From: Iphinoe sp. HA4291-MV1
Lineage (GTDB): Bacteria; Cyanobacteriota; Cyanobacteriia; Cyanobacteriales; Nostocaceae
NCBI GenBank assembly: GCA_019359415.1
Contig: JAHHHH010000022.1
Coordinates: forward strand, 22,489 to 86,488
Length of the DNA: 64,000 nucleotides
Direction of reading: 5' to 3'
Shown: one piece after another, positions 56,589-61,540 of the stretch
How positions within the stretch are numbered: the first letter of the stretch is position 1
How the letters are laid out: every line of letters starts with the position of its first letter
The notes under the pieces: model-generated
Seen by the model: the letters and a program-made list of their open reading frames with translations, nothing else
Told to the model about the DNA's origin: nothing
The model's database searches: none
Position numbers and translations under genes: made by a program

Positions 56589-57194
56589 ACAACCATGCTT
56601 TTGTACAATACGCAGGCTAACGGCACATTAATGAAGTCGGGATGGATTGGGTGCGGCGAAATTTTGAGAGTTTTCCAATGGTTGTTGAACCGAATTTTTC
56701 TCGGTAACAGTTCACTTAGCGTGCCAAAACGCGGCAATTATTCCATTATTGAATTTGCTACCAAAAGATCCGGATTGGTTGCATTGGCAACTGTACTATT
56801 TAGTAGAACCAGAATTATATCCAGTTAATGACTATTGCCCTTTTTTATTGCTTCGTCAATATTATAACGTTGATAGTGATAGTACCGTAACTATACGGAA
56901 TACCTGCTGTTTCCAGGGCATCTTTCACCGCATATCTGAGCAAGATGACAAATTCACTATCACTGCGGCAAGTATATATAAGGGGCATACTTGGCTAGTA
57001 GTGGCTGTGCGCGATCGCCCTTGGGTGAACGCACATAGATGAGCAGTTGCAAACTCTTTGTAATGAGCAACTGCTCACAGTTTGGGGTCGAATGAATAAC
57101 GCTCTTAATTGGTTAATAGTTGAAAACATCAATAGATAGCATCGACAGATGATAGAAATTTTTATAGTAAAAAAAAATACTATTTAATAAATTA
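56589..57194. other. Intergenic region with possible gene debris
   Basis: 606 bp before the patX promoter. On the plus strand a stretch reads LLPKDPDWLHWQLYYLVEPELYP (56752-56826). On the minus strand, 56965-56862 reads SEFVILLRYAVKDALETAGI, which looks like the tail of a membrane-channel or enzyme gene. Neither has a plausible full frame. Both may be remnants. Confidence 0.3.
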
Positions 57195-57231
57195 TCCGGA
57201 TGCACTAAAGAAAACTCAGTATCAGTAAAAT
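57195..57231 (+). promoter_or_regulatory. DIF-type promoter motif upstream of patX
   Basis: TCCGGA at 57195-57200, the core of the DIF element found at -35 of heterocyst-differentiation promoters. Candidate -10 boxes are TATCAGT (57220) and TAAAAT (57226-57231). The start codon of patX is at 57258, giving a leader of about 20-30 nt. Confidence 0.65.
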
Positions 57232-57257
57232 GAAGAGTTCTAAAATAGACATTTACT

Positions 57258-57470
57258 ATGCGTGCTGCCATTTCACTTCTCATTACAGGATTGTTCTTTG
57301 GCTCCATAGCTGTTAACAACCAAGCACTTGACGTACACATATCCAACTCTGGCTCACAACAGTTGATGGCGGCAACAGGCAATACCAGCAAACTTCCTCG
57401 CAGATCCTATCGTGGTAGTGGTCGCAAACAATTGGTGCAATACATCAAGAGTACATATCCTGTTGCCTAA
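57258..57470 (+). CDS. patX: PatX-family heterocyst-pattern peptide precursor
   Basis: 70 residues. An N-terminal hydrophobic signal (MRAAISLLITGLFFGSIAV, 1-19) precedes a polar linker and, near the C-terminus, RGSGR at residues 52-56 (codons 57411-57425), flanked by RRSY and KQLVQYIK. RGSGR is the pentapeptide of PatS and PatX-type inhibitors that bind HetR. PatX proteins are small, exported-looking and carry this motif near the end, exactly as here; PatS is much shorter. A TCCGGA (DIF) motif lies 58 bp upstream. It should limit heterocyst formation in neighbouring cells after processing. HetR is not in the window. Confidence 0.85.
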   Translation: MRAAISLLITGLFFGSIAVNNQALDVHISNSGSQQLMAATGNTSKLPRRSYRGSGRKQLVQYIKSTYPVA

Positions 57471-57769
57471 CAACACCAAAGTCAATGCTATTTGTGGCAA
57501 GCGTCTTGTATTAAGGGAATCAAAGTACCATAAACCAGGGTGTTTTGAAAATCTGTTACACACCCTTCCTAGCAAAGACGTGACATCAAAGATACAAAAA
57601 ATCTAAGTAATAGCTCGGCGTTTTATCCGTAAGCTTCTGTATACTTAGTTATCTGTTAACTTTTGCATTGAAATATGAAGCAAGTTAGCTGCCTGTATCA
57701 CAAGCATTAAGAGCTACTTAAAATAAGCAAGAAATTTCTGAGTGCAATCTTCATATTATCTCTTGAAAG
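57471..57769. other. Intergenic region downstream of patX
   Basis: About 300 bp. A plus-strand frame at 57412-57606 overlaps patX out of frame and looks spurious. No terminator or gene is recognised. Confidence 0.4.
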
Positions 57770-57893
57770 AGCGTTGCATAAACAGGGGATGAAGTATGAA
57801 CCGTCTTCGCGAACGCTCATGCTGAGCGCCAAGAAAGGAGTTTTCTAGTAAGCAAAGAAAATAAAATCATCCATCCCGCAAATATGCAACGCT
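57770..57893. mobile_element. MITE with AGCGTTGCATA ends
   Basis: AGCGTTGCATA (57770-57780) is inverted exactly at 57883-57893. Subterminal GGGATG matches extend the similarity. 124 bp, non-coding. Confidence 0.65.
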
Positions 57894-58104
57894 TTTGAAT
57901 GGGTGTTATTGGGCTGGCTTCAGTTAGGTAGGATCTCTGCCCTTTGAGGATTAGGGCAAGGTGGTTTTAGCGTCAGCCAAAGTTGGGGTGAGGTTCCGAC
58001 TGTATTAAGTACCTAAGCAAAATGAATTTCACACTTACTTCTCGCTGAATAAGCGTTTGAGGTGATTTTGATGGGTAATTTCATTTGCATGAGTACTTAC
58101 AACT

Positions 58105-58381
58105 AGGACTTACGCGAACGCAACCCGCTCTTTTTCGTAGCGTGTCCGTTGGCGCAGCCTCTGGGATAGGAGAAGGACAAGGAAAGAACCTATGCCAATA
58201 CGGTTCGGTTAAGGTAATTGTCAATCAGAGAAACCCGGTTTCTTCAAGAAACCGGGTTTCTGTCAAGCGTGCTTATCCGAACCGTATTTGGACCTATGCT
58301 TCCCTTCCCTGCGGACGCTACCGCGAACGGTCGCAATGACTATAGTAATGACTATAGTTACGTTGTTCGTGCGTAAGTCCT
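58105..58381. mobile_element. MITE with AGGACTTACGC ends, containing a second MITE
   Basis: AGGACTTACGC (58105-58115) is inverted at 58371-58381, and GAAC/GTTC extends the ends inward. 277 bp, non-coding, with the smaller element at 58197-58288 inside. Confidence 0.7.
58197..58288. mobile_element. Nested 92-bp MITE with hairpin core
   Basis: Ends AATACGGTTCGG and CCGAACCGTATT are perfect inverts. The core is the hairpin AGAAACCCGGTTTCT, TCAA, then GAAACCGGGTTTCT. Its right end recurs alone at 48769-48789. Confidence 0.72.
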
Positions 58382-58428
58382 GACAACGAAGTGAAAAGTG
58401 CTATAGAACTAATGTTCTACACCGTCGT

Positions 58429-59316
58429 TTAAGAGTGCTTATTTTTCACCCTTTTTATACCATTGAGAAATATCGGCACAAAGTTTTCCATCAATGCCTG
58501 TGGATCTCGCTTCCAAGCTCGCTGAATGGTATTAATGCGAGTCATTTGCAAATCTGGTGCCAAGAGAGTTTGTGGTAAGCGCTCCATAAGGTACTGAGGA
58601 CGTTGCCATATAGGCATTGTGTTTGCCACTTCCAGCAGGTTGGCAACTCTACGCAGTTCTGCACCCAAAGTAATATCCAGTCCTGCTTCAAAAGCTGCTT
58701 GTTCAATGGCAGCATACTTCCGCTTTGCTTGCTCAACCTTTTGGCGATGTTCGGGGCTTTTATTCGCTAATTGCGCTAACCAACGGTTACCCCAGCGAAC
58801 GTGTCCTGCTTCTTCTGGCAGAATTTTTTCAATTGTTTCGCAGATTTTGGTGTTTTCTTCGGTTTGCGGCGCTTGCTTAAGAGCATGAATATGGGCGGAA
58901 AAATACTCACATCCGCGTTTTTCCGTTACGTTAATTGCAGCAAGGGTCGAAATCAGAAACTCCTCTAGGTCTTTGCTTGGATCTCTTTGTTCTCGGTCAT
59001 ATAGCCTTTCAAACTCACTAATATAAGAAGATCCAGGAGGTGTTCCCACATTTGCTCCCAGTTCCACTAACAAATCAGTCAGCCACATAGCATGACGAGC
59101 TTCATCAGAGATATGGTGAGATAAATCTCGTATCAGTTCGGATGGCTGTCCGTCGAGTTGTTCAATAACTTCGGTAAGGTCTTTGCAACTGCGTTGCTCG
59201 CTGTAGCGGTAGCGGTTGAGGGTAATGAGATGGATTTCGCGATCGCGGACAAATTGTATCAAGATGTCCCTTGCACCTATAGCGTTTTGAAATTTGCGTG
59301 GGTAAGCAACAGCCAT
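58429..59316 (-). CDS. Ferritin-like diiron-domain protein
   Basis: 295 residues, all helical. Metal-ligand pairs of the ferritin-like fold are visible: HISDEARHAMW (Glu...His, about 67-77), EKRGCEYFSAHIH (about 132-144) and LPEEAGHVRWGNRW (Glu...His, about 169-182). The extra C-terminal helices (about 210-295) are specific to the group. It could be an oxygenase, oxidase or iron-binding protein; the substrate is unknown. A methyltransferase scrap and the gifA promoter lie upstream. Confidence 0.75.
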   Translation of the reverse strand: MAVAYPRKFQNAIGARDILIQFVRDREIHLITLNRYRYSEQRSCKDLTEVIEQLDGQPSELIRDLSHHISDEARHAMWLTDLLVELGANVGTPPGSSYISEFERLYDREQRDPSKDLEEFLISTLAAINVTEKRGCEYFSAHIHALKQAPQTEENTKICETIEKILPEEAGHVRWGNRWLAQLANKSPEHRQKVEQAKRKYAAIEQAAFEAGLDITLGAELRRVANLLEVANTMPIWQRPQYLMERLPQTLLAPDLQMTRINTIQRAWKRDPQALMENFVPIFLNGIKRVKNKHS

Positions 59317-59670: not shown

Positions 59671-59871
59671 ATGTCTACTCAAGAAAAAGCCCGTGCTCTG
59701 ATGATGCGTCACTATCAGCTCATTAAGAATCGTCAACAATCGATGCTGGGACGTACTGGTGAGGAATTAGGTCTTCCCGGAGAAGTTTCTAACTACTGGA
59801 ACCCCATTCAAGGAAAAATAGATCCTACCGCTCGCATGACTTATGATCGCAGCAATGCGACTATGAGCTAG
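59671..59871 (+). CDS. gifA: Glutamine synthetase inactivating factor IF7
   Basis: 66 residues, basic and probably disordered when free. It begins MSTQEKARALMMRHYQLIKN, then RQQSMLGRTGEELGL. Arg8, Arg21 and Arg28 sit at the positions known to contact GlnA in Synechocystis IF7. GKIDPTARMTYDRSNATMS is the conserved tail. It binds and inactivates glutamine synthetase when ammonium is plentiful. glnA is convergent 250 bp away, as in Anabaena. The AGGAAGG ribosome site is well placed. The TAG stop lies in the CTAG that borders a MITE. Confidence 0.92.
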   Translation: MSTQEKARALMMRHYQLIKNRQQSMLGRTGEELGLPGEVSNYWNPIQGKIDPTARMTYDRSNATMS

Positions 59872-60124: not shown

Positions 60125-61540
60125 TTAAACATCGTAATAGAGAGCGAATTCGTAGGGATGAGGACGTAACCGCATAGGGTTGACTTCATTATCCAACTTG
60201 TAGGAAATCCAAGTTTGAATGAGGTCTTCGGTGAACACGCCTGGTTTTGTCAAGAAGGCATGGTCTTTCTCCAGCGCTTCCAACGCTAATTCGAGAGAAC
60301 CCGGAGTTGAAGGAACCTTCGCCAGTTCTTCTAGAGAAAGTTCATAAATGTTCTTATCCAGAGGTTCACCTGGGTCGATTTTGTTCTGAATACCATCTAA
60401 ACCAGCGCACAGCATCGCAGCAAATGCCAGGTAGGGGTTAGAAGTCGCATCAGGACAGCGGAACTCTAACCGCTTGGCTTTGGGGTTGGTACCAGAAAGA
60501 GGAATACGGATAGAAGCAGAACGGTTACCTTGGGAGTAAGCCAAGTTTACGGGTGCTTCATAGCCAGGTACCAAGCGCTTGTAAGAGTTGGTGGTGGGGT
60601 TAGTGATTGCCAGCAATGCTGGTGCATGCTTAAGGATACCGCCAATGTAGTGCAATGCCGTTTCGCTCAAGCCTGCGTATTTATCTCCAGCAAACAGGGG
60701 TTGACCATCTTTCCAAATGGACTGGTGAGTGTGCATTCCAGAACCATTGTCTTGGAATACTGGCTTAGGCATGAAGGTAACGGTCTTGCCGTACTTCTTG
60801 GCTACGTTCTTGATGACATATTTGTAAGTCAACAGCCAGTCCGCTGCTTCAATCAACTTACCAAAACGGACGCCCAATTCGCACTGACCGCCAGTCGCGA
60901 CTTCGTGGTGATGCTTTTCAATGGGGACTCCACACTCTAACATTGTCAGCAGCATTTCTGTCCGCATATCTTGCAGCGTGTCTGTTGGGGAGACTGGAAA
61001 GTAGCCCTCTTTGTAGCGAGGTTTGTAACCCAGGTTGGGACCTTCTTCTTTACCAGAATTCCAACGACCTTCAACTGCATCCACGTAGTAATAGCCGGAC
61101 TGCTGGTTTTGGTCAAAGCGGACATCATCAAAGATGAAGAACTCAGCTTCCGGACCAAAGAAAGCTGTATCACCAATACCTGTGGAAACCAAATAGTCTA
61201 TTGCTTTCTGGGCAATAACACGAGGACAACGGCTGTACCACTCACCTGTCCGTGGTTCCTTAATGCTACAAATGATGCTTAGAGTTGGCTCTTGCATGAA
61301 AGGGTCAATCCAAGCTGTATCTGGATCAAGTACCATCGCCATGTCTGATTCATTGATGGCTTTCCAACCCCGGATACTAGAACCGTCGAAAGGTACGCCG
61401 TCTGTAAAGGAACTCTCATCAATTTGGTTTTGGAAAACCGTCAGATGCTGCCAGATTCCTGGTAAATCAATGAATTTCAGATCAATCATCTGAATGTTTT
61501 TGTCCTGAATCAGCTTCAGAACTTCTTGGGGGGTTGTCAT
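60125..61540 (-). CDS. glnA: Glutamine synthetase type I
   Basis: 471 residues, a standard dodecameric GSI. Visible motifs are [21 protein letters not shown] (substrate-domain start), FFGPEAEFF and ETLL-type metal ligands in [32 protein letters not shown] (ATP site), [12 protein letters not shown] and [17 protein letters not shown]. It condenses ammonium with glutamate in the cytosol and is the entry point of nitrogen. In cyanobacteria activity is set by IF7/IF17 binding rather than adenylylation. An NtcA-type site lies about 127 bp upstream. It is divergent from apcF. Confidence 0.97.

Follow-up and report, generated by a model that had tools for sequence, protein, structure and literature searches.

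The closest described counterpart of the locus considered here is PatX (asl2332) of Anabaena/Nostoc PCC 7120, a small exported precursor which carries an RG(S/T)GR motif and is governed by a DIF1 promoter. PatX contributes to the spacing of nitrogen-fixing cells in the filament. In Nostoc PCC 7120, the export of PatX, the inhibition of HetR and the suppression of heterocysts have been shown, PatX acting only once out of the cytosol and PatP being its peptidase (PMC12756182). The affinity between the PatX hexapeptide of this strain and HetR has been estimated at a KD of 88 nM, and DNA binding was abolished (PMC12756182). The evidence for cleavage by PatP comes from an E. coli reporter and peptides on either side of the hexapeptide; the same source gives the exact sites in Nostoc as unconfirmed, which counts against the explanation proposed below. 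The mechanism of PatX action is also drawn from PMC7377430. Passages of PMC7761841 describe the patX promoter as NtcA-dependent and report that a patX mutant of Anabaena PCC 7120 in nitrogen-free medium displayed no discernible change, a result counted against a simple account of the gene.

Two other inhibitors share part of this chemistry. PatS is a 17-residue peptide which ends in RGSGR and has no export signal; the pentapeptide and the HetR target are common to PatS and the gene described here. RGSGR is also present in HetN, a far larger, enzyme-like protein unlike the short reading frame of the present locus.

The window, meaning the whole stretch of 64,000 nucleotides from 'Iphinoe' sp. 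HA4291-MV1 that was analysed, contains the following features, numbered from its first letter:

57167..57180, forward strand: NtcA-type box GTA-N8-TAC (gtaaaaaaaaatac), from the sequence and its recurrence in the family
57195..57200, forward strand: DIF1 (DIF+) motif TCCGGA, predicted -35 element, from the sequence and conserved spacing (role of the motif: PMC7377430, PMC7761841)
57220..57225, forward strand: TATCAG, candidate -10 element, placed by its distance from DIF1
57233..57257, forward strand: predicted short 5' leader, strongly conserved, with a putative start site
57258..57470, forward strand: patX, encoding a 70-residue precursor, from the NCBIfam PatX match, the translation of the open reading frame (ORF) and homologues
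57258..57326, forward strand: hydrophobic N-terminal export signal, from the sequence (end approximate, judged by eye)
57411..57425, forward strand: RGSGR codons, residues 52-56 (YRGSGR as hexapeptide), from the translation
57426..57467, forward strand: 14-residue C-terminal tail KQLVQYIKSTYPVA, from the translation
58429..59316, reverse strand: DUF455-family protein, a frequent neighbour, from Pfam
59671..59871, forward strand: gifA, glutamine synthetase inactivating factor IF7A (NCBIfam, 126.4 bits, cut-off 70)
60125..61540, reverse strand: glnA, glutamine synthetase, from NCBIfam and Pfam

The 70-residue ORF was matched by the NCBIfam equivalog model NF047413 (heterocyst-inhibiting protein PatX) with 53.3 bits against a cut-off of 30, residues 1-58 aligning to positions 1-68 of the 69 in the profile. 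A preliminary description of this DNA had proposed a complete patX with a DIF promoter motif at 57195-57470 and suggested such a profile search as a check; the score above the cut-off, the alignable homologues and the lack of an internal stop bear the proposal out, and the translation, which has a hydrophobic N-terminus, agrees with the exported-looking peptide of 70 residues and the RGSGR at residues 52-56 that it had listed. Zero Pfam matches to the ORF were obtained up to E = 1, which is counted against the identification. The accompanying remark that annotation often overlooks genes this small has lost some of its force, since NCBI holds a PatX model.

The window patX is the sole NF047413 match in its own genome of 7,360,925 bases. 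A PatX match at E up to 0.001 was recorded in 70 of the 100 genomes searched, the present one included, with 69 of the 70 over the cut-off, and within this search all seven other genomes of the genus had one. In an order-wide draw, the match was found in 178 of 388 genomes, again counting the present one, and in none of 14 control genomes. Most translated homologues feature an MRAAISLL-like N-terminus, the RGSGR motif and a tail beyond it, and the nearest named loci among the matches listed belong to two Scytonema and to Tolypothrix campylonemoides, at 64-67% identity. The gene is an ordinary patX, a fresh member of a known family.

The hydrophobic N-terminus of the window PatX, visible by eye, is common to its homologues and, together with the 14 residues beyond RGSGR, distinguishes the ORF from PatS, as which it was ruled out. 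The motif itself differs slightly from that of strain 7120, which has RGTGR preceded by H, whereas the window has RGSGR preceded by Y. This Y is shared by 12 of 42 genera, H being found in 27, and since the tested hexapeptides have H or E at this position it is counted against the explanation. In 24 of 42 genera the tail has a length of exactly 14 residues, though an active hexapeptide would not need one. Across the loci, codons 2-8 vary less than those of RGSGR (pairwise identity of codons about 0.88 vs 0.59 on average, calculated by hand), an observation which is only suggestive because relatedness is uncontrolled and, among the five codons of RGSGR, two are nearly fixed (0.97 and 0.85). In other families, the homologues L149, L156, L029, L192 and L193 carry several RGSGR repeats per precursor, in the manner of multi-copy peptide precursors, with eleven counted by eye in L149.

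The surroundings of the gene are conserved as well. Among 86 loci for which the downstream sequence extends over 4.8 kb or more (the window counted, and at least two pairs, L039/L119 and L040/L052, representing one genome twice), gifA lies downstream on the patX strand in 72 and glnA on the opposite strand in 64, with neither in 14, while the DUF455 gene was detected downstream of patX in 36. In Anabaena, we take asl2329 to be gifA and alr2328 to be glnA. The order asl2332-alr2331-asl2329-alr2328 of Anabaena PCC 7120 (PMC7761841) fits that of the window. Relatives without PatX homologues at syntenic loci, which the preliminary description had named as grounds for abandoning its proposal, are not what was found, as the homologues adjoin gifA/glnA.

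The TCCGGA motif lies at 57195-57200, where it had been placed; the 58 bp given for its distance from the gene is correct if counted from the last base of the motif to the A of the ATG, whereas the gap itself comprises 57 bases. Taken alone, the hexamer is uninformative, because its frequency in the window is at chance level (8 occurrences vs 8.37 expected, with at least 8 in 60 of 100 shuffles), and it was rejected as stand-alone evidence; what counts is its placement. Over 122 loci the gap to the ATG is 57 nt in 115, 56 nt in five and 60 nt in one, with the motif absent in one; this set includes the window, omits the duplicate L001, the other-family L029 and also L014, and has at least two genomes present twice. 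With one locus per genus, the figures are 35 at 57 nt, five at 56 nt, one at 60 nt and one absent, for 42 of the family's 51 genera with a match (L014, G043, later L157, and seven genomes being left out).

Conservation extends across the whole control region. Over 115 distinct loci, all six TCCGGA columns are conserved at 93% or more, the six TATCAG columns at 73-96%, and 20 of the 25 leader columns at 85% or more, and the patX transcript would start approximately 25 nt before the ATG, near 57233. The core of the leader has one exact match in the genome. A role for the leader as a genome-wide element was rejected, as 43 sites with up to 3 mismatches were found vs 52 for a reversed control, and no known RNA families were detected at 56600-58450 at E up to 1.

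The shortness of the ORF and the chance-level frequency of TCCGGA within the window would both suit a reading frame that arose by chance or has decayed and contains RGSGR by coincidence. Such an origin is extremely improbable in view of the equivalog match, the homologues sharing N-terminus and motif, the conservation of promoter spacing and synteny, and the single match in the genome, free of internal stops.

Upstream of DIF1, at 28 nt from start to start, sits a box of the form GTA-N8-TAC, which we take to be the NtcA consensus. When each genus of the family is represented by a single locus, the box is found within -130..-64 in 29 of 42, and its position is exactly -91 in 23 of these, against a base-shuffled expectation of 1.7%. 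Of the 115 distinct family loci, 87 have it. When the 13 loci missing the exact box were inspected by eye, eight had one base changed in the GTA half and two in the TAC half, and three were without a box. None of 36 patX loci from other families has the box in the region searched there (-110..-1). A description of this box was not found in the literature searched, a set to which the original account of PatX by Elhai and Khudyakov (2018, Mol. Microbiol.) does not belong, and no priority is claimed. The leader and the NtcA-type box are conserved features of the control region which go beyond the preliminary account.

The presumed target of the peptide is encoded in the same genome. HetR_C has one match, with 166.8 bits, and the corresponding ORF of 299 residues can be aligned over its full length with HetR chains of solved structure, residues 217-299 aligning with 4ynl, which we take to be the Hood domain with the PatS hexapeptide. 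In the 846 bases upstream of this hetR (L179) there is no exact TCCGGA; in Anabaena PCC 7120, hetR is under a DIF1 promoter (PMC7377430). A codon-pattern search for RG(S/T)GR-like peptides followed by a stop gave 14 sites in the genome vs 11 for the reversed control, and the true RG(S/T)GR-stop sites were two, located in stretches of 8 and 20 residues between stops, neither with an ATG. No PatS was recognised by this codon-pattern search in the assembly, which is 95.35% complete, and therefore, as judged against PatS-like genes, PatX may be the main early heterocyst inhibitor in this organism.

An orthologue of patX could also serve mainly another HetR or filament function, e.g. in necridia or in fragmentation, a role that has been put forward for relatives lacking heterocysts. 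Such a function would accord with the co-occurrence of PatX and HetR in Oscillatoriales (PMC12756182) and with the effects of PatX on expression in Leptolyngbya BL0902, which looked basically HetR-independent (PMC11298460) and are counted against the heterocyst explanation. For the present organism it is very unlikely, as HetR and the DIF1 motif are present, the NtcA-type box is common in its own family, and nifH matches above the cut-off occur at three places in the genome, although 3 of 14 control genomes exceed this cut-off too; one of the three matches has an internal stop. That one, the third nifH-like match above the cut-off (G000:C41:28895-29713, L182), is interrupted by one TAG.

The explanation favoured for the locus as a whole, held with high confidence, is that of the genome's single-copy patX acting on HetR via an exported RGSGR peptide. 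Gene identity, motif, conserved promoter layout, synteny and the presence of a full-length HetR in the same genome are established from the sequence, and the equivalog match, the synteny, the DIF1 spacing and the full-length HetR support the earlier proposal of a precursor of a HetR-inhibiting peptide under a DIF1 promoter. By orthology with the gene studied in Anabaena PCC 7120, the window PatX would likewise be induced, exported, processed and inhibitory to HetR. Nitrogen stepdown would activate transcription from the DIF1 promoter, with TCCGGA as -35 element, in a HetZ-dependent manner in Anabaena, and NtcA would probably be bound at the GTA-N8-TAC box directly upstream. The 70-residue precursor would then be exported via the Sec route and undergo processing beyond the cytosol, which in Nostoc PCC 7120 is the task of PatP, into an RGSGR-containing peptide, whose putative binding to HetR would stop DNA binding and keep neighbouring cells from becoming heterocysts.

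The control region often has a different layout in the other families of the order, which are presumed to be without heterocysts. Among 36 of their patX loci (39 less L140, L147 and L205, which yielded no ORF; several share genus or genome and are not independent), 16 have an inverted repeat whose arms pair at 8 or more of 10 positions and whose centre lies at -28 to -22 relative to the ATG, whereas none of the 42 loci of the window's family reaches 8 of 10 pairs at the same centre. With four further copies found by repeat search the count rises to 20 of 40, and six control positions gave 0-4 of 40. When the strongest repeat within the final 60 nt was compared with dinucleotide shuffles, p was up to 0.05 in 16 of the 36 loci, two of these centred elsewhere (-18), and in one of the 42 loci of the window's family. 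The promoter of the window patX showed no such repeat, the best arms there being of 4 bp and no better than shuffles.

Comparison by script and by eye shows that the two arms vary in step, with TCCGTATCAGG ... CCTGATACGGA accompanied by compensated variants. These include CCGTATCAGG/CCTGATACGG (L204), TTAGAG/CTCTAA (L190, L206), AGTCCG/CGGACT vs AGCCCG/CGGGCT (L208b, L209b) and, with two mismatches, CTGTAACAGG/CCTGAAACAG (L196); an A-C mismatch is kept within the arm in several loci, e.g. L191, L194 and L201. Loops of 8 to 14 occur, a range that coincides with the limits set for the search, and a variable loop length would suit an action of the repeat as RNA. A scan of 12 genomes with a fixed 12-base spacer and up to 2 mismatches returned 89 strand matches vs 90 for the reversed control, and loose matches therefore amount to noise. 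At 0-1 mismatch, 13 sites were found in 9 of the 12 genomes; of the 12 sites examined (all but G201 C11:246807), 11 precede patX-like ORFs and one, G280 C432 (L220), does not. In 26 of the 36 other-family loci the ATG is preceded, at a distance of 52-58 nt, by a DIF-like TCC[TGC]GA, a count favoured by the choice of start, and this position argues that transcription starts inside the repeat.

Two genomes, G122 (L208, about 980-1740) and G201 (L209, about 977-1770), have two tandem patX-like genes with an inverted repeat before each. The product of one gene in the pair is a peptide of 30 residues with HRGSGR at its end, PatS-like by form and lacking a clear hydrophobic signal; that of the other has a hydrophobic N-terminus without RGSGR. 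The arrangement looks like a patX split between two copies. A similar 30-residue form is present in G316 (L210, minus strand).

patX is held to predate heterocysts. A rewiring of its control when heterocysts arose, with the repeat of the other families set against the NtcA-type box and conserved leader of the heterocystous lineage, is a tentative and unproven reading that we consider rather less probable than not. On this reading, that lineage, the window included, is without the repeat and has instead the box 28 nt upstream of DIF1 together with the leader. The repeat would serve patX specifically as an operator covering the start site or, should transcription begin further upstream, as a hairpin in the RNA, and the direction of the change, with loss of the repeat and gain of the box, is inferred. 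As one more PatX, the gene itself matters little beyond annotation. Of more weight is the visible difference in patX control elements that separates heterocystous families from those presumed to lack heterocysts, since it suggests, in testable form, how a peptide signal of greater age may have come under nitrogen control.
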